DNA of 32,479 nucleotides from a virus. The stretch spans positions 1 to 32,479 of the IMG/VR virus record IMGVR_UViG_3300032315_000591; one strand, given 5' to 3'. The position numbers and the translations under genes are program-made. The notes below the pieces were generated by a model. That model was not told the origin of the DNA. It searched no databases and saw nothing but the letters and a program-made list of their open reading frames with translations. This document shows, in pieces, positions 2,360-23,691 of this stretch. How positions within the stretch are numbered: position 1 is the first letter of the stretch; each line of letters begins with the position of its first letter.

Positions 2360-3157
2360 ATGTCAAAAAATGTATTTTTGAATAAAAATATAGCAACCAC
2401 TCAGGTTCATATAAACTTTATAGATGAAGATCATATTGAACCTAAAGATTATATGTGCGCTAATCCCTTGGCCATATACGGATCATTTCCAAGAAATACT
2501 GATGAGTGTTTGGAAAAATTTTTTCCTGGCTATACGCAAAATTCAGATTTAAATGAGATGGTTGCAAAATTAAGACCATCAAAACCTTCTATAGCTTCAG
2601 ATATGGATAGCGGTCTTCCCATTTATGAAGAAGATTCTGAACCGGAAGAATGTGAATTGACTTGTGCATTTTCTGATACGAAAATGTGCGATAAAATTGA
2701 TCAGAGATTGGGAGAAACTTTTTTAGGGTGCTACTATTCAGAACCAAATGCACCATTTAGCTGCGATTGTCCTTTTTTCGGAAAGGATTACCCAAAACTG
2801 CTTACCGCTGCATTAAAAAATAGTACATTCTGGAATACTCCTCTTGAAGTACAATTAGCCAGAAGAGCTTTTTTAGCGTTAATGAACGCTAGTAAAATTC
2901 AAGTTACGATTGATGGTACATTCAATGTAAGACCAGGATATAAAGTCTATATTAATGATATTCCCAATCAATATTCTGGGGGAGAACCAGGAAAATTAAA
3001 TGGTGATTGGATAGTAATGGCAATCAATCATAAAATATTCAAAGATAGGCATCAAGAAACAACACTAACTTTAATGAGGGCTTATACAAATTCAAATATA
3101 GGGAACATTAGCACTAGAGATACTTTTATCGATCCAATCATAAATATTCAAAAATGA
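2360..3157 (+). CDS. Baseplate hub-associated protein with gp27-like C-terminal domain
   Basis: Product of 265 residues, ten bases after the gp27-like gene, with an AAGGAA ribosome-binding site. Residues 165-245 (VTIDGTFNVRPGYKVYI, then DWIVMAINHKIFKDR, then TTLTLMRAYTN) parallel the C-terminal domain of T4 gp27: a small beta domain reading GNFNLTPGVKIIF, then VDEVIHEL, then THLYMFTN. The N-terminal half has no family that I recognise. It is acidic and holds eight cysteines (residues 33, 50, 98, 102, 110, 124, 135, 137), six of them clustered at 98-137, which could bind a metal or form a cluster. The simplest reading is that the hub fold is shared between this protein and its neighbour. An independent tail-tip protein with a related domain is the alternative. 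Confidence 0.55.
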   Translation: MSKNVFLNKNIATTQVHINFIDEDHIEPKDYMCANPLAIYGSFPRNTDECLEKFFPGYTQNSDLNEMVAKLRPSKPSIASDMDSGLPIYEEDSEPEECELTCAFSDTKMCDKIDQRLGETFLGCYYSEPNAPFSCDCPFFGKDYPKLLTAALKNSTFWNTPLEVQLARRAFLALMNASKIQVTIDGTFNVRPGYKVYINDIPNQYSGGEPGKLNGDWIVMAINHKIFKDRHQETTLTLMRAYTNSNIGNISTRDTFIDPIINIQK

Positions 3158-3531
3158 GTTATCTAAAAGACATAAACATATTTGGATACATTGATGCCAA
3201 GGGAGATGTGGCTAAGGTATCTAAAATTGCCTTCACTAATCAGGCAGTAAAAAATTTATTAAATCTAAGAATTGGGGATTCCAGACTCTCAGATGATAAA
3301 TTTAAAAATAATATTGACGCATATAAATTTTCTACAGATTATGCAAAAAATATTAAAACTAATGTGTCTATAATATCCAGAGTCAAGAATAAGCTCAAAC
3401 AAATTGTAGATTTGACCGTAACTCCAACACAAGCAACAAAAACGGTTACTTTTGATGTAAGCTATACAATTTCTGATTCTATTTCAAAAAATTTACAGTC
3501 TTCTACATTTAAGTTCACAATAGATAAATAA
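3154..3531 (+). CDS. 25: gp25-like baseplate wedge protein
   Basis: Product of 125 residues (T4 gp25 has 132), a small baseplate wedge subunit that helps nucleate the contractile sheath. The middle (AVKNLLNLRIGDSR, then LSDDKFKNNID) follows the gp25 pattern of N-terminal helix, short-loop processing motif, and the region that in T4 reads SLLGIITTRKGSRPFDPEFG. The C-terminal half has the expected two strands, KQIVDLTVTPT and TFDVSYTISD. The ATG overlaps the upstream TGA as ATGA, so translation is probably coupled. Immediate adjacency to gp6 supports the call, because gp25 and gp6 join the same wedge core in contractile tails. Confidence 0.75.
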   Translation: MSYLKDINIFGYIDAKGDVAKVSKIAFTNQAVKNLLNLRIGDSRLSDDKFKNNIDAYKFSTDYAKNIKTNVSIISRVKNKLKQIVDLTVTPTQATKTVTFDVSYTISDSISKNLQSSTFKFTIDK

Positions 3532-9985: not shown

Positions 9986-10924
9986 ATGGCATTAAATCCT
10001 TATTTTAGATTCCAGGGAACTGAGCAGAATGTTGTCGAAGACAACATCATCGAAATTATTCGTATGATGGGAAAAAATCTTTGGTACATTCCCAGAGAAA
10101 ATGTAAATCTTGATAGGCTATTTGGAGAAGACCAATTAAACAAATTTACTAAAGCATATCAAATTGAAATGTATATTGCTTCTGCTTCTGGATTCGAAGG
10201 GACGGATGTAATAACTAAATTTGGCCTAGAAGTAAAGGATAGAATTAATTTAGTCGTTAGTAAGAAAAGATTCACTAACGAAATTACAACTAAAAATTCT
10301 ACAATCATAAGACCCAGAGAAGGGGATCTTATATTTTTTCCTCTCAGCAAGACTTTATTTGAGATAAATTTCGTAGAGCACGAATTGCCATTCTATCAGT
10401 TGGACAAGAATTATGTGTTCACTTTAAATTGCGAAACCTTCGTGTATTCGGCAGAACAATTCGAAACTGGCAATACAGACATGGATTCTTTGGCAGATAC
10501 CAAGCAAGAAATCTACAATTTCATCATAGGCTCAACATTCTCAGGATTTACAGCTGCATACAATCAAGCCGTTCGCGGCGAACAGTATTATGTTCCTGGA
10601 TCTGTGGCAGGAACAACATCATACTTCCGTATGCTTGATTACGGTATATCTGGCTCTGTAATGGCTGCCAAGCTGGGTTCTATAGATGGAGTTACCTTCT
10701 CTGGACCAACGGTACTTACAAGTTCAGTCTCTGGATCTACATTCAGAATTCTTTCAATATCTTCTACCAACGATATCGTTACAATCAATCCTGTATTGGA
10801 CGATCTTGCTGGCGAAATACAGCCATTGGATTATCAGAGAGGATTCACTGGAAGTGGAAGCAGAATAGATACTCCTATAATCAATTTTAGCGAAACCGAC
10901 CCATTCTCTGAGGGCAATTACTAA
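9986..10924 (+). CDS. 14: gp14-like neck protein
   Basis: Product of 312 residues (T4 gp14 has 256), partner of gp13 in the neck. The N-terminus (NPYFRFQGTEQNVVEDNIIE then IRMMGKNLWYIPRE) is strongly characteristic of gp14. After this come AYQIEMYIASASGFEG and REGDLIFFPLSKTLFEINFV, the conserved core strands. The C-terminal third is Ser/Gly/Thr-rich, longer than in T4, with short repeats of the type SGSTFRILSISS, and ends with an acidic PFSEGNY. The start is ATG one base after the gp13 stop. The 3' end overlaps the next ATG (TAATG). Confidence 0.88.
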   Translation: MALNPYFRFQGTEQNVVEDNIIEIIRMMGKNLWYIPRENVNLDRLFGEDQLNKFTKAYQIEMYIASASGFEGTDVITKFGLEVKDRINLVVSKKRFTNEITTKNSTIIRPREGDLIFFPLSKTLFEINFVEHELPFYQLDKNYVFTLNCETFVYSAEQFETGNTDMDSLADTKQEIYNFIIGSTFSGFTAAYNQAVRGEQYYVPGSVAGTTSYFRMLDYGISGSVMAAKLGSIDGVTFSGPTVLTSSVSGSTFRILSISSTNDIVTINPVLDDLAGEIQPLDYQRGFTGSGSRIDTPIINFSETDPFSEGNY

Positions 10925-11967
10925 TGTTTAATTCATACGACAACCAATCGATAAGAAAATTAGTTATTGCTTTCGGTTCATTATTTGATGAGATCTATGT
11001 TTCTAGAAAAAATGATACGACAGGAATTACAGAAAATGTAAAAGTTCCTATCACTTTTTCATCAAAGGAAAAGTTTTTAAGAAGATTAGAATCAAATTCT
11101 TCAATTACCGATAATGTCAAAACGCAAATAAATATACCCTATCTCAGCTTTGAGGTTGCAAATATTGCTTATGACTTCGGAAGAAAACGCAATAAATTAA
11201 CAACTACCTCAGAAATAATAACCGCATCGGACGGGAGCATTTCTGAGAGTTATAAAACATTCTCGGAAACTCCAATAAGCGTAGTTTTTAATTTGTATTT
11301 TTACTCAAGAAGTTTAAATGAGTTATTACAAGTACTGGAACAAGTTCTTCCTTTTTTTAATCCAGAATTCAATATAAGGATGAATTTTAATAAAATATTT
11401 AAGAATGTAAATGTCCCTATTGCTTATAGAGAATTTAAAATAATTGACGATTACGAAGGGTCTTTGCAGTCAAGAAGAATGATGATTGGCGTAATGTCAT
11501 TCATTGCATCTTCTTATGTTTTTGGTGAAGTAAAACCAACCATTGTCATCGAAGATGTCATAGACGATACTACTCTTGATCCTGATCTTGATGTAGATCC
11601 AGTTCCGACAACAGAAATACTAATTAGTTCTGCCTTTGGTGTTAATCCTTACTATCTACCAATAGGAAAATCTGGTTTTGCTTCCAATCTTAGTTGGACT
11701 GAAACTAGTGTTTTTGATCTTAATACAACTGTAAGTGTATTCACAATTACCAACAGATTGCTTTATACACAAATAATTCCAGCAGGAACATTGTCTCTAA
11801 CTAGCGGACAAATTACAAATATGATTTCTAGTATTTGTACCGAACTAAATATTTGTGGAATTAATGATGGTTCTTTGAGAAAATTAGTTTTGAAAATCCA
11901 AAACGGAACAACCGTTGCACAAAAGGATTTTAGAGTTATTATGGATTGTACTACAGCATGTCAATAA
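10924..11967 (+). CDS. 15: gp15-like tail terminator with C-terminal extension
   Basis: Product of 347 residues (T4 gp15 has 272). gp15 caps the tail by binding the last sheath and tube rings and docks the tail to gp13/14. The N-terminal 190 residues match gp15: MFNSYDNQSIRKLVIAFGSLF, then VPITFSSKEKFLRRL, then FNLYFYSRSLNELLQVLEQVLPFFNP, and a final strand with RRMMIGVMSF. The extra C-terminal region from about residue 225 has the look of a separate strand-rich domain (residues 240-345, including GKSGFASNLSWTET and two C-terminal cysteines), which I cannot place. The ORF overlaps the terminase small subunit by ten bases. Confidence 0.85.
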   Translation: MFNSYDNQSIRKLVIAFGSLFDEIYVSRKNDTTGITENVKVPITFSSKEKFLRRLESNSSITDNVKTQINIPYLSFEVANIAYDFGRKRNKLTTTSEIITASDGSISESYKTFSETPISVVFNLYFYSRSLNELLQVLEQVLPFFNPEFNIRMNFNKIFKNVNVPIAYREFKIIDDYEGSLQSRRMMIGVMSFIASSYVFGEVKPTIVIEDVIDDTTLDPDLDVDPVPTTEILISSAFGVNPYYLPIGKSGFASNLSWTETSVFDLNTTVSVFTITNRLLYTQIIPAGTLSLTSGQITNMISSICTELNICGINDGSLRKLVLKIQNGTTVAQKDFRVIMDCTTACQ

Positions 11968-12383
11968 ACAAATTAAATGATTTTTTTGAAATAGAATCTA
12001 CTGGCAACACAGCTAACAATCAAATTCAGAAATCGTCTGAAAACGATTATGAATATGCCAGAGAAAATCTATATGACATAATAAACAAATCAAAAATTGC
12101 TCTTGAAGGGATTATGAAGGTTGCGACTGAAGGCGATTCTCCCAGAGCATATGAAGTAGTAACTCAAATGCTGAAAACCATGTCAGAGATCAACAAAGAT
12201 CTTATAGATCTTGAGAAGATAAAGAACGAAGCAAATAAGACCACTATAAAAACAACAAATAATAATTCATTCTTCATAGGCTCCACTAGTGATCTACAGG
12301 ATTTAATCAATCCTGAAAGAAGTAAGAACAAATCTATAGAAATGATTGATGCGAAGGTGGTAGAGGATGTCAAGGAAATTTAA
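11958..12383 (+). CDS. 16: Terminase small subunit (gp16-like)
   Basis: Product of 141 residues from the ATG at 11958, overlapping gp15 by ten bases. An in-frame TTG four codons upstream is not needed. The features match T4 gp16 (164 residues): an N-terminal acidic linker, then a two-helix hairpin (YEYARENLYDIINKSKIALE and SPRAYEVVTQMLKTMSEINK), then NSFFIGSTSDLQDLI, which parallels T4's VFMGSPTELMDEI. gp16 forms a ring that recognises DNA and stimulates the gp17 motor. The 3' end overlaps the next gene by 17 bases, coupling the two subunits. Confidence 0.85.
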   Translation: MSINKLNDFFEIESTGNTANNQIQKSSENDYEYARENLYDIINKSKIALEGIMKVATEGDSPRAYEVVTQMLKTMSEINKDLIDLEKIKNEANKTTIKTTNNNSFFIGSTSDLQDLINPERSKNKSIEMIDAKVVEDVKEI

Positions 12384-14016
12384 GGGTTACTTAGGTAATC
12401 CAAATCTAAAAGAAGCTGGAGTAAAGATCGACTTCACCGAAGAGCAGATTCGGGAATATGTTCGTTGCTCTCAAGATCCCATTTATTTTATTAAGAAATA
12501 TGTCAAGGTAGTCTCTCTTGATAAGGGCCTTGTTCCTTTTGAGTTATATGATTACCAAGAGGACATGATTAATAAAATGCATAACAATCGTTATATCATT
12601 GCCAAACTGCCTCGTCAGTCTGGTAAGAGCACAACGATTGTTGCATTCATTCTCCACTACATTCTTTTCAACCAGAGCATGAGCGTTGGTATTCTGGCCA
12701 ACAAGATGAATACGGCTAGAGAAATTCTTGGCCGTCTTCGTCTGGCCTATGAATATCTTCCCAAATGGCTTCAGCAGGGCATCATCGAATGGAATAAGAC
12801 ATCCATTCAGCTTGAGAATGGCTCAAAGGTCATGGCATCGGCCACATCCTCATCAGCAGTTCGTGGTGGATCGTTCAACCTCATCTTCTTGGACGAATTT
12901 GCCCATGTCTCTCAAAACATAGCAGAAGAGTTCTTTAGCTCTGTTTACCCCACGATTACCTCCGGTCAGACCACGAAGGTATTCATGGTATCTACCCCAA
13001 ATGGACTCAACATGTTCTATTCCTTCTGGAAGGGGGCCACAAGGAAGCAGGGCGAGGAGGGCAAGAACGAGTACATACCCATAGAGGTGTCTTGGAGACA
13101 GGTTCCTAAGTACTCTGGTGGGCCTCTACGCGACGAGCAGTGGAAGCAGCAGATGATTGCCCAGACCAGCGAACAGCAGTTTGAGCAGGAATTCGAATGT
13201 TCGTTCCTTGGTTCATCAAACACCCTCATCAGTGCCAGCAAACTAAATTTGCTTCAGTTTGATAAACCGATAGCCAAGGAGCCAGGAGGTCTTTACATCT
13301 ACGACGAGCCAGTAGAGGGCCATGCATACTTCATCATGGTCGATGTCGCCAGAGGTCAAGGAAGAGACTATACGGCTATGGTGGTGGTCGATTCCACCGA
13401 AAAGCCTCATAAGGTCGTGGCAAGGTATAGAAATAATCTTATATCCCCGTTTGATGTTCCGCCGGAACTTTACAATCTGGCAATAAAATATAATAACGCA
13501 CACTTACTTATTGAAGTAAATGACATCGGAGGTCAGATTGCCGATGCCATGCACGAAGATTATGAATATGAAAATATCATTCAGACTCAGATGATGGGCC
13601 GTGCAGGACAAAAAGTAACTCTTGGATTCGGGCGCGGAACAAAACAAAGAGGCGTAAGAACCAGCTCTGCGGTCAAAAAACTAGGGTGTGCAGTTCTAAA
13701 AAATTTGATTGAGCAAGACAGACTCTTAGTCAGAGATTTTGATATCATTCAGGAATTGATGACATTTGTTTCGAAACATCAGACATTTTGCGCCGATGAT
13801 GGTTATACAGACGATTTGGTTATGTGTTTGGTTCTTTTTGGATGGCTAACGCGCCAGGGTTACTTCGAAGAGATCATCGATATACAAAAGAAAAAAATTA
13901 TAAATACCACAGAGAAAGAAGAGGAAGAGAATACAACCTTTTTTATGGGTTCCCGTGAATTTGATTCTGAAAAGGTATTTAAGGAAGACAATTCTCTTTG
14001 GTTTACCGAGGAATAA
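12367..14016 (+). CDS. 17: Terminase large subunit, packaging ATPase/nuclease (gp17)
   Basis: Product of 549 residues (T4 gp17 has 610). The ATPase domain occupies residues 1-~290: Walker A LPRQSGKST at 81-89, Walker B LIFLDE at 172-177, coupling motif MVSTPNG at 207-213. The nuclease domain follows: acidic residues D326 (VDVARGQGRDYT), E383 (LLIEVND) and D482/D483 (GYTDDLVMCL) form the RNase H-like catalytic triad. It cuts concatemers and drives DNA into the prohead through gp20. Composition changes inside the gene: bases ~12500-13420 are rich in C-ending and CGT/CGC codons, while the last third returns to AT-rich codon use with AGA. The start has a GGTGG/GAGG ribosome-binding site within gp16. 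Confidence 0.95.
   Translation: MSRKFKGYLGNPNLKEAGVKIDFTEEQIREYVRCSQDPIYFIKKYVKVVSLDKGLVPFELYDYQEDMINKMHNNRYIIAKLPRQSGKSTTIVAFILHYILFNQSMSVGILANKMNTAREILGRLRLAYEYLPKWLQQGIIEWNKTSIQLENGSKVMASATSSSAVRGGSFNLIFLDEFAHVSQNIAEEFFSSVYPTITSGQTTKVFMVSTPNGLNMFYSFWKGATRKQGEEGKNEYIPIEVSWRQVPKYSGGPLRDEQWKQQMIAQTSEQQFEQEFECSFLGSSNTLISASKLNLLQFDKPIAKEPGGLYIYDEPVEGHAYFIMVDVARGQGRDYTAMVVVDSTEKPHKVVARYRNNLISPFDVPPELYNLAIKYNNAHLLIEVNDIGGQIADAMHEDYEYENIIQTQMMGRAGQKVTLGFGRGTKQRGVRTSSAVKKLGCAVLKNLIEQDRLLVRDFDIIQELMTFVSKHQTFCADDGYTDDLVMCLVLFGWLTRQGYFEEIIDIQKKKIINTTEKEEEENTTFFMGSREFDSEKVFKEDNSLWFTEE
13899..13906 (+). promoter_or_regulatory. Possible T4-type late promoter (TATAAATA) before the sheath genes
   Basis: An exact TATAAATA lies inside the 3' end of gp17, 117 bases ahead of the first sheath gene. 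In T4-like phages gp55 recognises this box. A site here would give the tail block its own late start. It falls on IleIleAsn codons in AT-rich coding sequence, where a few chance matches per window are expected, so the support is weak. Confidence 0.3.
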
Positions 14017-14022
14017 AAAAAT

Positions 14023-15192
14023 ATGCCATCAATTAATATTTACGAAAACTCAACACCAATCATAGCAGGAATCGAAGCAGAAGCGTCATCTCACTTATCA
14101 GCTTTTATTTGTGGTTATTCGCTATACAATAAAATGACGCAGGCTGATGCTACGCAATTGGGATACAAAGTATTCAATAACCCAAATGAGCTTCTTTCCG
14201 TATTTGACATCACCGTTCTCAGCGGAGTTTGCTCTGGATTTGCAACTGGCGCAGGGTTTAGCGGTGGCACAGTACACGACAGAGAATTACATTCAGCTTT
14301 AAATTACCTCCAGTATGGTGGCATTCTTGTCGCTGCAACCGGAGCAAGTGCTCTAAATAACACAAATCTTTCAATCGATAGCGCATTCTGCGAAGATAAT
14401 GCAAAATTTAACGATGTTATTTCTCTAATTTCACTAAGACAAGATTGTGTCGGTATTGTCGGCTCCTCAGCAGAATACCACAATGGCGTTTCTTCAGCTT
14501 ATCCCACTACATCAATGGCCATATATTCCATGTACGGAATTACTGGAATTAGCGGAGCTACCTCAATCGATGAGAATTTCTTCAGCATAATTGGCAGAAA
14601 GACCAGAGAAAGAATCTATGGAGCAACTGGCACAATCAACCTTTTAATGACATCCGATGTTGCTGGGTTGATGGCAATCGTTGATAATGCTTATGGTCCT
14701 TGGACTCCTCCAGCAGGAATTAGAAAGGGTGAAGTTTTAAACTTTACTAATTACGAACCAAAACTCAGTGAAACAAACGCAAGCACTTTGAGTGATTCAT
14801 ATGGAATTAACAGTGTTAGTGGAATATATGGATACCCAGATAGAGTCTTCTTGATGGGCGATTCTAGCCTTGAAAAGGTAGATTCCTATAGAATGCACAT
14901 TGGCATTTCTAGACTAATTCTTCACATTAAACGAGGAATTAAGCCATTGCTACAGGGCGTACTATTTGAAATTAATAATTCTTCCACAAGAACTGCTTTG
15001 ACAAATTCAGTTTCTAGCTTCTTAGAAAGAATTCTTAATAAGAACGGAATCAAGACATATACCGTTACATGCAACGAAACAAACAATACAGAAACTGTAA
15101 TTAACAGTAAACAATTGGTAATTGATATTTCGTTCGTTCCGTATTACACAATTGAATCTATAACATTCAGATATGTTCTAACACAAGCTTAA
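14023..15192 (+). CDS. 18: Tail sheath protein A (gp18-like)
   Basis: Product of 389 residues, much shorter than T4 gp18 (659), probably lacking the outer insertion domains. The N-terminal half includes YLQYGGILVAATGA (near 95-110), the conserved strand-turn of sheath proteins. The C-terminal half shows the core fold shared by contractile sheaths: DVAGLMAIVDNAYGPWTPPAG and IRKGE, then RLILHIKRGIKPLLQGVLFE, then SSTRTALTNSVSSFLERIL, and TYTVTCNETNNTETVI. The sheath contracts to drive the tube through the cell envelope. A GAGGA ribosome-binding site lies upstream. The stop overlaps the next start (TAATG), which belongs to a second sheath gene. Confidence 0.9.
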   Translation: MPSINIYENSTPIIAGIEAEASSHLSAFICGYSLYNKMTQADATQLGYKVFNNPNELLSVFDITVLSGVCSGFATGAGFSGGTVHDRELHSALNYLQYGGILVAATGASALNNTNLSIDSAFCEDNAKFNDVISLISLRQDCVGIVGSSAEYHNGVSSAYPTTSMAIYSMYGITGISGATSIDENFFSIIGRKTRERIYGATGTINLLMTSDVAGLMAIVDNAYGPWTPPAGIRKGEVLNFTNYEPKLSETNASTLSDSYGINSVSGIYGYPDRVFLMGDSSLEKVDSYRMHIGISRLILHIKRGIKPLLQGVLFEINNSSTRTALTNSVSSFLERILNKNGIKTYTVTCNETNNTETVINSKQLVIDISFVPYYTIESITFRYVLTQA

Positions 15193-16487
15193 TGTCCTTT
15201 ACATATTCGATAAAACAAATAGATTCGAAGAAAGTCGTAGATGGAGGATTTCTCATCTACGATTCTCTTTTATTTAATGTTTTAGGAATAACACAAACCC
15301 ATAAACTGTTGGAATCAGTAAGCGATTTTACGCAATTGATAAACAATGCGGATTATACTCAAATAAGCGCATCTATAACAGATTCTGATTTATTTTTAAA
15401 AGAATTAAATAATACATCAACAACATCTACCAAAACTGATGTAAGAAAAATAGATTTTTATTTTAATTTTATTTTAGATGCACTTCATTATAACTATAAT
15501 ATTTACTTAATAAATGCATCAACAGAAAATAATGCATTTGATGTTTTAGGAAAATACGATTTGGATTATCTTGTTTATGATCCATTAAAAACAACAATTT
15601 CTTCAGAATTGATTTCTGAGATTAAAATAAAAAATATTCCAATTTTATTGAATGCTTCTTTAAATCAAAACTCATTTAGAGCCATAGAAAATTTATATGT
15701 TTCTAATAATTCTACAGATTTGAATTATCAATTTGATGATTTTTATTTACGAACAGAGTTAAACGATGCTGATTTTAATCAGCTGGCATTTACCGTTTGT
15801 GGCGTAAAGCGTCTTAAAAGATATTATGGTGATAATAACATATCAGACGATACCGAATTTTCAAATTCTCCATATGTTTTAGTGCCTCTTATCAGTGATG
15901 CGGCAGGAATGATGGCAAGAAGTTATTCCGTTTATCCTTGGTATACGGCAGGAGGTTTTATCAACGGTAAAGTTCTAAATCAAATATTCAGTAAAATAAA
16001 TTTACCAAATATAAGATTTTCAGAAAGCATAATCCCCCAGACACCTGTAGATATCACATTTACATCTCCGTCCAAGCTATACACTGCACAGACCAGAGGA
16101 ATAAATTGCATTCTTAAAATCGCTGGTCCTTCTGGAAAAGAATACTTTTTAGCTACAGATTTTTCTGGAATTACTTCTTCGGACAATACTGTTAAACAGA
16201 CATTTAGTTATTCGAATCTGTATTCTTATATTGCCAGAAACAGCAAATCGATCATAAATCGATTTAGATTTGAATTAAATTCTCCAGAAAATAGAGAATT
16301 GATAACTAGAAATTTAAATAATTTACTAGAAAACATAAAAAGAAACGGTGGAATAGATTCTTATAATGTTATCTGTAATGATATCAATAATACGGAAGCT
16401 ACGATAGCAGAAAATAGATTGATCGTTGACATATCATTTAAACCAATTGAAAGTCCATCAGTAATAAATCTCAGTTTTACTACATAA
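15192..16487 (+). CDS. Tail sheath protein B, divergent paralog
   Basis: Product of 431 residues. The C-terminal 180 residues align by eye with sheath A: ISDAAGMMARSYSVYPWYTA corresponds to DVAGLMAIVDNAYGPWTPP, RFRFELNSPENRELITRNL to GVLFEINNSSTRTALTNSV, and YNVICNDINNTEATI to YTVTCNETNNTETVI. The N-terminal half differs and lacks the AATGA turn. So this is a second sheath-type protein, arisen by duplication or acquired separately. Its base composition is visibly more AT-rich than that of sheath A. It could form a specialised part of the sheath, for example near the baseplate or collar, or alternate with A. Coupled to A through TAATG overlap. Confidence 0.82.
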   Translation: MSFTYSIKQIDSKKVVDGGFLIYDSLLFNVLGITQTHKLLESVSDFTQLINNADYTQISASITDSDLFLKELNNTSTTSTKTDVRKIDFYFNFILDALHYNYNIYLINASTENNAFDVLGKYDLDYLVYDPLKTTISSELISEIKIKNIPILLNASLNQNSFRAIENLYVSNNSTDLNYQFDDFYLRTELNDADFNQLAFTVCGVKRLKRYYGDNNISDDTEFSNSPYVLVPLISDAAGMMARSYSVYPWYTAGGFINGKVLNQIFSKINLPNIRFSESIIPQTPVDITFTSPSKLYTAQTRGINCILKIAGPSGKEYFLATDFSGITSSDNTVKQTFSYSNLYSYIARNSKSIINRFRFELNSPENRELITRNLNNLLENIKRNGGIDSYNVICNDINNTEATIAENRLIVDISFKPIESPSVINLSFTT

Positions 16488-16510: not shown

Positions 16511-17056
16511 ATGCCGAATAGCATATCAAATTTCATTACGGGATTTAGAGGCGGTACGAGAAAAAATCGTTTCGAAGTAACTGGTACTTTTCCAACTGGT
16601 GCAGGTGGAGATGAGACTAAATTAAAATACCATGTTCTATCGGCATCACTTCCAAATTCCACACTCGGCATTGTAAATTTTCCATATAGAGGAAGATTAA
16701 TTCCTTATGTTGGAGATAGAATTTATGAGCCTTGGGATGTTTTAGTTCTTGATGATAGAGGTTCTGGTCTATATCAAGCATTTCAGGGGTGGAGCGAATT
16801 AATAAACAACCATCAAACAAACGAACATGCATATGATGATGACGATAGCTGGTTCGCCGGGAGTGCGGCTGGAGCTGCTATTCAAAATAGTTCTTGGTCT
16901 ATAAAACAACTAACTTTAAGCGGAGATACAATTAAACAAATTACACTAAAATCTTGTTGGCCGGGTTTTATTAGTCCTTTGCAATTTAATATGGCTGACA
17001 CAGGATTCAATTCTTTTGCCGTAAGACTTAATTATAACTTCATTGAAGTAGGATAA
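16511..17056 (+). CDS. 19: Tail tube protein A (gp19-like)
   Basis: Product of 181 residues (T4 gp19 has 163), the subunit of the inner tail tube. Family marks are the N-terminal ISNFITGFRGGTRKNRFEV, then LPNSTLGIVNFPYRGRLIPY and GDRIYEPWDVLVLDDRG, and the C-terminal FNSFAVRLNYNFIEV. The pattern strand - loop - PYRGR - GDR - W is typical of gp19/Hcp-like tube proteins. A GAGGT ribosome-binding site precedes the ATG. The loop at residues 105-125 is rich in Asp and Gly and unlike its neighbour's. Twelve bases separate it from a second tube gene. Confidence 0.88.
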   Translation: MPNSISNFITGFRGGTRKNRFEVTGTFPTGAGGDETKLKYHVLSASLPNSTLGIVNFPYRGRLIPYVGDRIYEPWDVLVLDDRGSGLYQAFQGWSELINNHQTNEHAYDDDDSWFAGSAAGAAIQNSSWSIKQLTLSGDTIKQITLKSCWPGFISPLQFNMADTGFNSFAVRLNYNFIEVG

Positions 17057-17068
17057 AAGAGATATAAA

Positions 17069-17620
17069 ATGTCAATACAAAATTTTATCAATAATTTTAA
17101 TGGCGGTACTAGAAAAAACAGATTTCGGGTAAAAATGATTGACGGGCCTGAAGATCTTCAGACTCTTATTACCGATTTTCATATCCAAGCAGCTGCTATG
17201 CCCGCATCAATTTTAACGACTAATCCAATTGATTATCAGGGAAGAAAAATTCTATATCCAGGAGATAGACTTTATAGCGCAGATGGTTTTAATGTTTGGA
17301 CCATGACCGTTTTAGATGATGTCCCCACAGCATTTGGTAACTATACAGACATATGGAATGCTTTCCATGATTGGAGCAATAGAATAAATGCACACGATCT
17401 TAATACTGGAGATACTAGTGAAACCAGTACTATTGTAGTAGAACAGTTAAATTTAAATGAAACTGGAGCAAATGGTGGCGTAATCAAAAGATCTACACTT
17501 TATCAATGCTGGCCACAATCAATTAGCACTATTGATATGGAAATGCAGGCTAGAGATCAATATAATTCTTTCGATGTAACCATGTGCTTCAGATATCTTA
17601 AGTATGAAGATCTTGAATGA
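17069..17620 (+). CDS. Tail tube protein B (gp19-like paralog)
   Basis: Product of 183 residues, related to tube protein A: FINNFNGGTRKNRFRV parallels FITGFRGGTRKNRFEV; MPASILTTNPIDYQGRKILY parallels LPNSTLGIVNFPYRGRLIPY; GDRLYSADGFNVWTMTVLDD parallels GDRIYEPWDVLVLDD; CWPQSISTIDMEMQARDQYN parallels CWPGFISPLQFNMADTGFN. Both retain the tube fold, but loops differ. Possibly the pair makes two tube segments, or one is a tube initiator like T4 gp54, which is itself tube-like. The AAGAGA sequence upstream is a weak ribosome-binding site. Confidence 0.85.
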   Translation: MSIQNFINNFNGGTRKNRFRVKMIDGPEDLQTLITDFHIQAAAMPASILTTNPIDYQGRKILYPGDRLYSADGFNVWTMTVLDDVPTAFGNYTDIWNAFHDWSNRINAHDLNTGDTSETSTIVVEQLNLNETGANGGVIKRSTLYQCWPQSISTIDMEMQARDQYNSFDVTMCFRYLKYEDLE

Positions 17621-17658: not shown

Positions 17659-19194
17659 ATGGCTTATAAACTTTTTGGTTTTACCGTCAGATCGAAAGAA
17701 GAAGAAGATAAACTTCCTCTTCAGAATTTTGCTACTCCAGAAGAATTTGATGGAGCATATACAGTCGAAGGTGCTGGGGTTTATGGCACTTTTATTGACT
17801 TCATGGGTTCGCTCAAAGACGAACAAGCATCAATGGCTCAATATAGAGCTATGGCATTATTCCCAGAAGTAGATACCGCCATCGATGAAATTACAAATGA
17901 ATCTGTCGTCATGGGAAACGATAGAAAACCAATAAAGTTAGATTTATCGAAAATTGGATTTTCTGATAATATCAAGAGTAAGATTTATACTGAATTTGAT
18001 AATATTCTAAAACTTTTAGATTTCCAAGATAAAGGTTATGAAATTTTTAGAAGATGGTATATCGATTCAAAGCTTTATTATTATATTTCAATCGATTCCG
18101 AAAATCCATCAGAGGGAATCAAGCAGCTAATTCCATTAGATGCAACCAAAGTAAAAAAGGTCAGAAAAGTAAAGACAAAGAATAGCAAGCAAGATGGAGC
18201 GAATATATCGCTTATCAAGGATGTTGAAGAATATTTCGTATATACAAATACAGATAAAAATTCTGTAATTGGTACTCCCACATCTGGTCTTAAGATTTCT
18301 CCAGACTCAATCGCATTCTGCCATTCTGGATTGGTAGATATGAATTCAAAGAGAGTTGTTGGCTACCTCCACAAGGCAATTAGACCTCTAAACATGCTTA
18401 GGCAGATCGAAGATGCGATAGTCGTATATCGCATCTCCCGCGCCCCAGAGCGTCGTATCTTCTATATCGATGTCGGCAATCTACCAAAGCAAAAGGCTGA
18501 ACAATATGTCCGTGAGCTTATGAATAAGTATCGCAATAAGCTCATTTATAACCAGACAACTGGTGAAATAAAGGACGATAGAAATCAGATGGCCATGATT
18601 GAAGATTATTGGCTACCTCGCCGCGAAGGTGGTAGAGGAACTGAAATTTCTACCTTAGACGGGGGACAGAATCTCGGTGAATTGACCGATGTTGAATATT
18701 TCAAGAAAAAGCTCTACTACGCTTTGAACATTCCTCCATCAAGACTTGTGGGGGAAAATGGATTCAATCTTGGAAGATCGGCTGAAATCACGCGAGATGA
18801 GGTCAAGTTCTACAAATTTATCGAAAGATTAAGAAATAAATTTGCCCAAGTCTTCATGCAGCTACTAAGAATTCAATTGGTTCTTAAGGGTGTTATAACC
18901 CAGAACGACTGGGAAGAAATAAACTACGCGATTAATTTCTCCTTCAATAAAGATTCTTATTTCACAGATCTAAAAGATGCTGAAATTCTATCGGCAAGAA
19001 TGGAATTGGCCGCTCAAATGGAGCCAATGATAGGAAAATATTTCTCTTCGATGTACATCAAAAAGAACATTTTGAAGCAGAGCGACGAGGAAATAGAGCA
19101 ATTAAATAGAGAAATGGCCGTAGATATTGCAAAGCAGCAGCAAGAACAAATGATGCAAATGCAAATGGCACAGGAACAAGGACAGCCAGAATAA
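17659..19194 (+). CDS. 20: Portal protein (gp20)
   Basis: Product of 511 residues (T4 gp20 has 524). Twelve copies form the vertex ring through which DNA enters and leaves. The typical signature is present: YRAMALFPEVDTAIDEITNE near residues 62-80, then RRWYIDSKLYYYISID near 131-146, IVVYRISRAPERRIFYIDVG near 254-273, and LTDVEYFKKKLYYALNIPPS near 345-364, followed by GENGFNLGRS. The C-terminal 30 residues are a Gln/Met-rich tail (QQQEQMMQMQMAQEQGQPE). Bases 18361-18560, coding for the IVVYRISR block, use far more CGT/CGC codons than the rest of the gene. AAGGA ribosome-binding site upstream. Confidence 0.95.
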   Translation: MAYKLFGFTVRSKEEEDKLPLQNFATPEEFDGAYTVEGAGVYGTFIDFMGSLKDEQASMAQYRAMALFPEVDTAIDEITNESVVMGNDRKPIKLDLSKIGFSDNIKSKIYTEFDNILKLLDFQDKGYEIFRRWYIDSKLYYYISIDSENPSEGIKQLIPLDATKVKKVRKVKTKNSKQDGANISLIKDVEEYFVYTNTDKNSVIGTPTSGLKISPDSIAFCHSGLVDMNSKRVVGYLHKAIRPLNMLRQIEDAIVVYRISRAPERRIFYIDVGNLPKQKAEQYVRELMNKYRNKLIYNQTTGEIKDDRNQMAMIEDYWLPRREGGRGTEISTLDGGQNLGELTDVEYFKKKLYYALNIPPSRLVGENGFNLGRSAEITRDEVKFYKFIERLRNKFAQVFMQLLRIQLVLKGVITQNDWEEINYAINFSFNKDSYFTDLKDAEILSARMELAAQMEPMIGKYFSSMYIKKNILKQSDEEIEQLNREMAVDIAKQQQEQMMQMQMAQEQGQPE

Positions 19195-21678: not shown

Positions 21679-21686
21679 TATAAATA
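21679..21686 (+). promoter_or_regulatory. T4-type late promoter (TATAAATA) for the capsid gene
   Basis: An exact TATAAATA, the box recognised by the late sigma gp55, sits in the 30-base gap before gp23. Transcription should start shortly downstream (roughly 21691-21693). It is followed by a strong TAGGAGA ribosome-binding site and the ATG at 21705. In T4, gene 23 also has its own strong late promoter, and the terminator after gp23 supports a separate capsid unit. Confidence 0.75.
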
Positions 21687-23181: not shown

Positions 23182-23691
23182 ATGTCATTTACAGAAATTT
23201 CGACACTAGGTCAAAATTATTTTAGGTTTGAACTCTCAAGAATTCCAACCGTAGAATATTACACCCAAGAAGCAAATTTACCAAATTTGATTCTTGAGGC
23301 TCAAGATCAACCAACTACTCTTGGTATACCAGTAAAAAGACCAATCGGTGCTTACAAGTTCGAAAATTTGACTTTGAGTTTTTTAGTTGATGAAAAAATG
23401 ACCAATTGGTTGGAAATTTATAAGTGGATGAGACATCTCGGAAATATCGACAGCGACAATTATAACAATGAACTTCCTTTTGAGTCTTGGGAAAGCAATG
23501 CTTATTTGCATTTAACAAAAGGAACATATAACGACAACATTAAAGTCATCTTTCATCAAGTTTTTCCAGTTGCTTTATCTGGATTAAAATTTATGACTGA
23601 TGCTCCTTCCAATGCTGTACAAAAAGCCACCGTTACATTTGCTTACACTTATTATTCGTTTGACCCAGATCCAGGGGCTATAACTAGTTGA
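23182..23691 (+). CDS. Tail tube-like protein, probable tail completion protein gp3 by position
   Basis: Product of 169 residues (T4 gp3 has 176, gp19 has 163). Residues 13-88 (NYFRFELSRIPTVEYYTQ, then NLPNLILEAQDQPT, then FENLTLSFLVDEKMTNWLEI and YKWMRHLG) match a widespread T4-like family related to tube and tail-completion proteins. In cyanophage T4-likes the gene just after gp23 is usually annotated as gp3, the tail completion/sheath stabiliser at the head end of the tube, and the position here agrees. I cannot separate a gp3 role from a third tube-type role by sequence. It begins 11 bases after the terminator's T-tract with no visible ribosome-binding site. A phage protein with this fold is expected in the virion tail. 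Confidence 0.6.
   Translation: MSFTEISTLGQNYFRFELSRIPTVEYYTQEANLPNLILEAQDQPTTLGIPVKRPIGAYKFENLTLSFLVDEKMTNWLEIYKWMRHLGNIDSDNYNNELPFESWESNAYLHLTKGTYNDNIKVIFHQVFPVALSGLKFMTDAPSNAVQKATVTFAYTYYSFDPDPGAITS

Follow-up and report, generated by a model that had tools for sequence, protein, structure and literature searches.

Two divergent sheath genes and two tube genes in the predicted contractile tail of a clade of T4-type viruses

A clade of uncultured T4-type viruses carries two complete and divergent tail sheath genes in tandem, followed by at least two tail tube genes in nearly all of its members, where T4, the textbook contractile tail, has one sheath and one tube. The pair, here named SHA and SHB, was found in a 32,479-base virus record, the whole of which was analyzed and is referred to as the window, and lies between gp17 and two tail-tube genes in a T4-type structural block that runs in the order gp13, gp14, gp15, gp16, gp17, two sheaths, two tubes, gp20, gp21, gp22, gp23, gp3, uvsY, uvsW, gp55 and onwards.

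SHA (tail sheath protein A, 389 aa; 14023..15192, plus strand) is composed of an N-arm of normal length, a sheath core, and a C-terminal handshake domain, and SHB (tail sheath protein B, 431 aa; 15192..16487, plus strand) is its divergent paralogue. Both exceed the Pfam cut-off of 26.9 bits for Phage_sheath_1C (PF17482; SHA, 33.9 bits, 3.5e-8; SHB, 39.6 bits, 5.6e-10) and match the PHROG tail sheath family phrog_23 (7.7e-30 and 2.3e-14, respectively), which bears out the claim of a preliminary description that two tandem sheath genes occupy 14023-16487. The motif pairs quoted there are all found in the two translations, and the C-terminal core that it held to be shared is recovered by BLASTP (29% identity, 5.6e-17 in a small database, with homology over the C-terminal half) and by hhalign (99.8% over SHA 169-385). 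A profile built from SHA relatives matches T4 gp18 over SHA 129-387 (1.5e-30), and one built from SHB relatives matches it in two C-terminal stretches (3.6e-17). Both genes also sit between gp17 and gp19/gp20, as does the T4-type tail sheath gene. A single sheath gene that has been split or frameshifted is ruled out by the full C-terminal domain in each gene and by their nearly constant lengths.

The tube genes that follow, both on the plus strand, are TUA (gp19-like, 181 aa; 16511..17056; phrog_45, 4.6e-27) and TUB (183 aa; 17069..17620; phrog_45, 2.7e-25), and the gp20 portal gene (17659..19194, plus strand; PF07230, 1.5e-175) forms the right border of the sheath-tube block. A further tube-family gene at 23182..23691 (plus strand; phrog_45, 2.1e-31) matches cyanophage gp3 and falls into a separate gp3 clade (100/99), and is thus a gp3-like tail tube terminator rather than a third gp19. 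The tail sheath terminator or stabiliser, gp15, is encoded at 10924..11967 (plus strand; PF16724, 2.2e-45); its length varies widely in the clade, from about 348 to 582 aa, though it is expected to cap the last sheath disc. An ORF at 3154..3531 (plus strand) is, solely by its position directly before gp6, a candidate for the sheath initiator gp25, and resembles in position and size the wedge gene that precedes gp6 in Pelagibacter phage HTVC008M. No gp25 profile matches this ORF and a search for the gp25 family in the clade contigs came back blank; loss of gp25 is nevertheless not concluded, since the ORF occupies its place. Relatives encode gp48, gp53, and, near gp48, a separate gp54-like tube gene, which rules out TUB as the baseplate tube initiator.

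Elsewhere in the window, the adjacent ORFs at 97-2349 and 2360-3157 match different parts of the tail protein family phrog_350, like a split baseplate protein, and L061, a relative, has a pair of neighbouring ORFs of similar length there. The ORF at 25634-26353 matches a PHROG annotated as "methylamine utilization" and is found in the same place after uvsW in phage Mosig and in cyanophages. Genes for terminase, portal, protease, scaffold, and major capsid proteins are present, which sets the window apart from extracellular injection systems such as AFP, PVC, and BIS. No isolate is close to the window: its portal reaches no more than 50.6% identity with those of cyanophages, and its gp17 shares about 52-53% with the gp17 of Pelagibacter phage Mosig, of marine virus AG-345-D19, and of cyanophage S-CAM3.

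Searches with SHA and SHB as queries return the tandem pair in many contigs. For an unbiased count, the search was anchored not on the sheath but on the terminase large subunit gp17 (12367..14016, plus strand), and the genes downstream of it were then read. All 31 contigs that reach gp20 and share at least 78.6% gp17 identity with the window encode exactly two sheaths between gp17 and gp20, and thereby have the two or more sheath paralogues among their tail genes that define a multi-sheath tail; the preliminary description had suggested looking for the pair in related genomes, and it is a constant feature there. Twenty-two of these contigs have two tubes, eight have three, and one (L002) has a single tube ORF, which is accounted for by an internal deletion in TUA (L002:3835-4240), either real or an assembly fault. 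In the next lineage out, whose gp17 is 61-67% identical to that of the window (n = 15), one sheath is found in 15/15 contigs and one tube in 14/15. Among sequenced phage records, neither query matches at a second place (SHA, 1817 records; SHB, 1072 records; one place in each), in a search that would detect pairs diverged like SHA and SHB and would miss more diverged ones, and a scan of genome contigs with the SHB alignment found no relative. Four T4-like contigs (L009, L010, L011, and L114) combine a single long sheath of 629-650 aa with two tandem tubes, and the tubes of L009 and L010 branch apart from the TUA/TUB pair.

Gene trees show that one old sheath duplication and one tube duplication took place in the same ancestor. 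In the sheath tree, the SHA clade (100/99) and the SHB clade (100/100) are sister groups (100/99); single short sheaths branch next to them and long T4-like sheaths outside, an answer to the phylogeny that the preliminary description had proposed as a check. This topology, in which SHA and SHB exclude all single sheaths sampled, rules out horizontal gain of SHB from another phage, and the SHA and SHB subtrees are largely congruent, which indicates joint inheritance of the pair. The same shape recurs in the tube tree, with TUA (99/97) and TUB (96/93) forming orthologous groups of their own that join as sisters (97/92) beside the single tubes. A TUB-type gene underwent further duplication, probably on more than one occasion, in L031, L040, L026, L028, and L003, which carry three tubes in a row. 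The sheaths of the single-sheath sister lineage are mostly 390-461 aa long, so shortness is not a product of the duplication; these lengths make it the ancestral condition, older than the duplication. The preliminary description was thus correct that both proteins fall short of T4 gp18, though this is not special to the pair, and it missed both the tube duplication in the same ancestor and the short sheath that preceded it.

Both sheath genes are under purifying selection (dN/dS 0.04-0.09 for SHA and 0.04-0.20 for SHB); the preliminary description had named its absence in the second gene, together with the lack of that protein in virions, as grounds for abandoning the idea of two sheaths, and the ratios run against such an absence. 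SHB evolves faster, with a stem of 1.61 changes per site against 0.78 for SHA, and its otherwise conserved PAG motif and its N-arm are divergent. When L007 and L015 are compared with the window, dS jumps at the gp17/SHA border, from 0.35-0.42 in gp17 to 1.4-1.9 in SHA, pointing to recombination that may swap tail blocks between close head genes.

The predicted model of SHB (pLDDT 81) aligns over 322 residues with the sheath of Klebsiella phage KP1 variant (SHB 1-422; Z 24.8, rmsd 4.2), and the T4-type, PVC, and AFP sheaths that it matches score Z 24.8, 24.1, and 24.0, respectively, at an rmsd of about 4; SHB is accordingly predicted to be a complete minimal sheath fold and more than a stray domain. 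For SHA, the model is of low quality (pLDDT 54), though sheaths are still ranked first by Foldseek, and its N-terminal strands and helices follow an order like that in SHB. The preliminary description held that the N-terminal halves differ, which is true of the sequences; given the similar predicted order of secondary structure, the difference most likely reflects sequence divergence and not a different fold. The first core strand begins at residue 17 in the SHB model and at residue 25 in that of SHA, giving SHB an N-arm about 8 residues shorter, and K13, K14, and D17 are invariant in 18 SHB sequences; these features would suit contact with a different neighbour. Both proteins retain the tube-facing helix region and the handshake domain, and both stop only a few residues past the last strand, where the single sheaths of related phages are roughly 10-20 residues longer.

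The two sheath genes meet in the sequence TAATG (15190..15194, plus strand), in which the last A of the SHA stop codon is the first base of the SHB start codon, and this one-base overlap is found in 43/43 junctions of the gp17-anchored contig set. A Shine-Dalgarno sequence, GAGGA, precedes SHA and none precedes SHB in the window and nine relatives, and the start of SHB therefore probably depends on translational coupling to SHA through the overlap. The preliminary description was right about the overlap itself; its statement that both proteins are made was drawn from the overlap. A T4-late-promoter-like box, TATAAATA, lies inside the end of gp17 (13899..13906, plus strand), 124 bases before SHA, and a box is found 123-124 bases before SHA in 14/16 contigs; its role as a late promoter is tentative, because chance alone would put about three such boxes in the window and this one falls within coding sequence. 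Another late-promoter-like TATAAATA box, at 21679-21686 just before gp23, is intergenic, is present in 8/8 contigs, and is followed by AGGAG. A separate promoter for SHB was rejected, as no late-promoter box was found inside SHA.

Codon usage was scored by comparing the synonymous codons of each gene with a gp23 reference. In seven other T4-like phages, each with a single sheath (T4, Aeromonas phage 25, P-SSM4, S-RIM8, S-MS29, Mosig, and AG-345-D19), the sheath ranks first after gp23 in every case (+4.3 to +9.5), which fits a protein made in large amounts. In seven two-sheath contigs, which are mutually related and for which codon usage is an indirect measure of abundance, the lowest score of the genes compared belongs to SHB (mean z -4.5, range -3.5 to -5.5), whereas SHA has a positive average of +1.9; the scores barely change when third-position GC is matched. 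The tube genes of the same contigs score near -0.9, though at least one tube must be abundant, so that the codon score is a weak gauge and uninformative for the tubes.

The explanation preferred here, whose chances of being right are about even, assigns the trunk of the sheath to SHA and special discs to SHB, present in low copy, with matching tube discs. On this view the tail is of the T4 contractile type, its sheath and tube genes having each undergone one duplication in the clade ancestor; SHA would be the main trunk sheath, and SHB output would be held low via translational coupling to SHA. One or a few special discs would consist of SHB and would most likely sit at the baseplate or neck end of the trunk, where the shorter N-arm of SHB would fit a different neighbour, and TUA and TUB would provide the matching two kinds of tube disc; we infer in this way that SHB is part of the virion, that its copy number is low, and where in the tail it sits. 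A precedent exists in PVC, whose paralogues Pvc3 and Pvc4 contribute 6 chains each to the baseplate structure entry only, whereas Pvc2 is found in the trunk entries. Conversely, the clade encodes gp15 and gp3 terminators of its own and its relatives encode gp48, gp53, and the gp54-like tube gene, so that special end discs would be unneeded for initiation or termination. The lowest codon score of SHB and its lack of a Shine-Dalgarno sequence favour unequal use of the two sheaths over 1:1 alternation, although a one-base stop/start overlap often gives roughly equal output. The view of the preliminary description that two subunit types depart from the T4 plan is strengthened by purifying selection on both and their fixation across the clade; it left open what kind of rings they form, and the codon and start signals lean towards a low-copy SHB over a 1:1 arrangement.

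Equal use is nonetheless the basis of the principal competing explanation, an unlikely one on present evidence, in which SHA and SHB discs alternate, or mix with three of each, around matching TUA and TUB discs in a stoichiometric two-component trunk. The duplication and retention of both sheath and tube in one ancestor, the invariant coupled junction, and the tube-facing helix region and handshake domain kept in both proteins would all suit such a trunk, as would the occurrence of both Afp2 and Afp3 in the helical-trunk entries of AFP (6rbn, 6rc8) and of two sheath proteins in the structural proteome of PaBG (PMC7412058). It is harder to reconcile with codon usage and start signals that indicate SHB expression far below that of SHA, or with tubes that vary from two to three while the sheaths stay at two. 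A related and broader proposal, somewhat unlikely but marginally less so, is an obligate two-component tail with two matched kinds of sheath-tube disc, alternating or zoned, the mixture of which would set the mechanics or the order of contraction.

Alternatively, SHB may be a sheath-derived assembly factor or contraction regulator, such as a transient seed or a switch of sheath form, and no permanent disc at all. Its low-copy codon signature, faster evolution, and divergent PAG motif and N-arm are compatible with that role, but the predicted fold is complete, including the N-terminal arm, and the co-duplication of the tube points to a structural function, making this explanation improbable. 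That SHB is a redundant recent duplicate or an assembly artefact without a function of its own is scarcely credible: tandem position alone speaks for it, against which stand the reciprocal old clades of SHA and SHB, retention in 31/31 contigs with 43/43 identical junctions, and purifying selection on both sheaths. The preferred explanation, that of a low-copy SHB in special discs, belongs to a two-sheath, two-tube reading that predicts specific and checkable virion stoichiometries. Together, the clade and its single-sheath sister lineage form a natural experiment on how a contractile machine goes from homomeric to heteromeric, and they carry a warning for annotation, in that multiple gp18 or gp19 matches in such phages represent genuine paralogues rather than mistakes.

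The clade resembles T4 gp18/gp19 and Kyanoviridae in its gp17-sheath-tube-gp20 order, sheath domain family, gp15, and gp3, and differs from them in having two short sheaths and two or three tubes, where those phages have a single tube and a single sheath, which measures 639-807 aa in the marine isolates read. Some phages encode two sheath copies (PMC9230969), and Vibrio phage Pv27 is annotated with four tubes and two sheaths (PMC12063606); a literature search that covered few subscription journals found no two-sheath T4-like phage with data. The Pseudomonas jumbo phage PaBG has a two-component sheath of gp76 and gp213, diverged paralogues that arose, as here, by duplication and are both in its structural proteome (PMC7412058). 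PaBG is, however, a Baikalvirus jumbo phage whose sheath gene numbers, 76 and 213, are far apart and whose sheaths are 38% identical, and its duplication is its own, having followed the split from Mieseafarmvirus. AFP and PVC have several sheath and tube paralogues per contractile tail (Afp2/3/4 with Afp1/5/7; Pvc2/3/4; PMC12961389), and their sheaths are short, like those of the clade, and among the closest folds to the SHB model, alongside T4-type sheaths; unlike the clade, they are not phages, have no head and three sheath genes, and lack adjacent head-packaging genes. One architecture of the Bacteroidales injection systems (BIS) has two sheath and two tube proteins (PMC7394362), but this is a bacterial injection system with another gene order and some single-sheath variants. 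Two-sheath tails are therefore already known from PaBG, AFP/PVC, and BIS, and the clade is unusual in doubling both sheath and tube, with a clean single-sheath sister lineage beside it.
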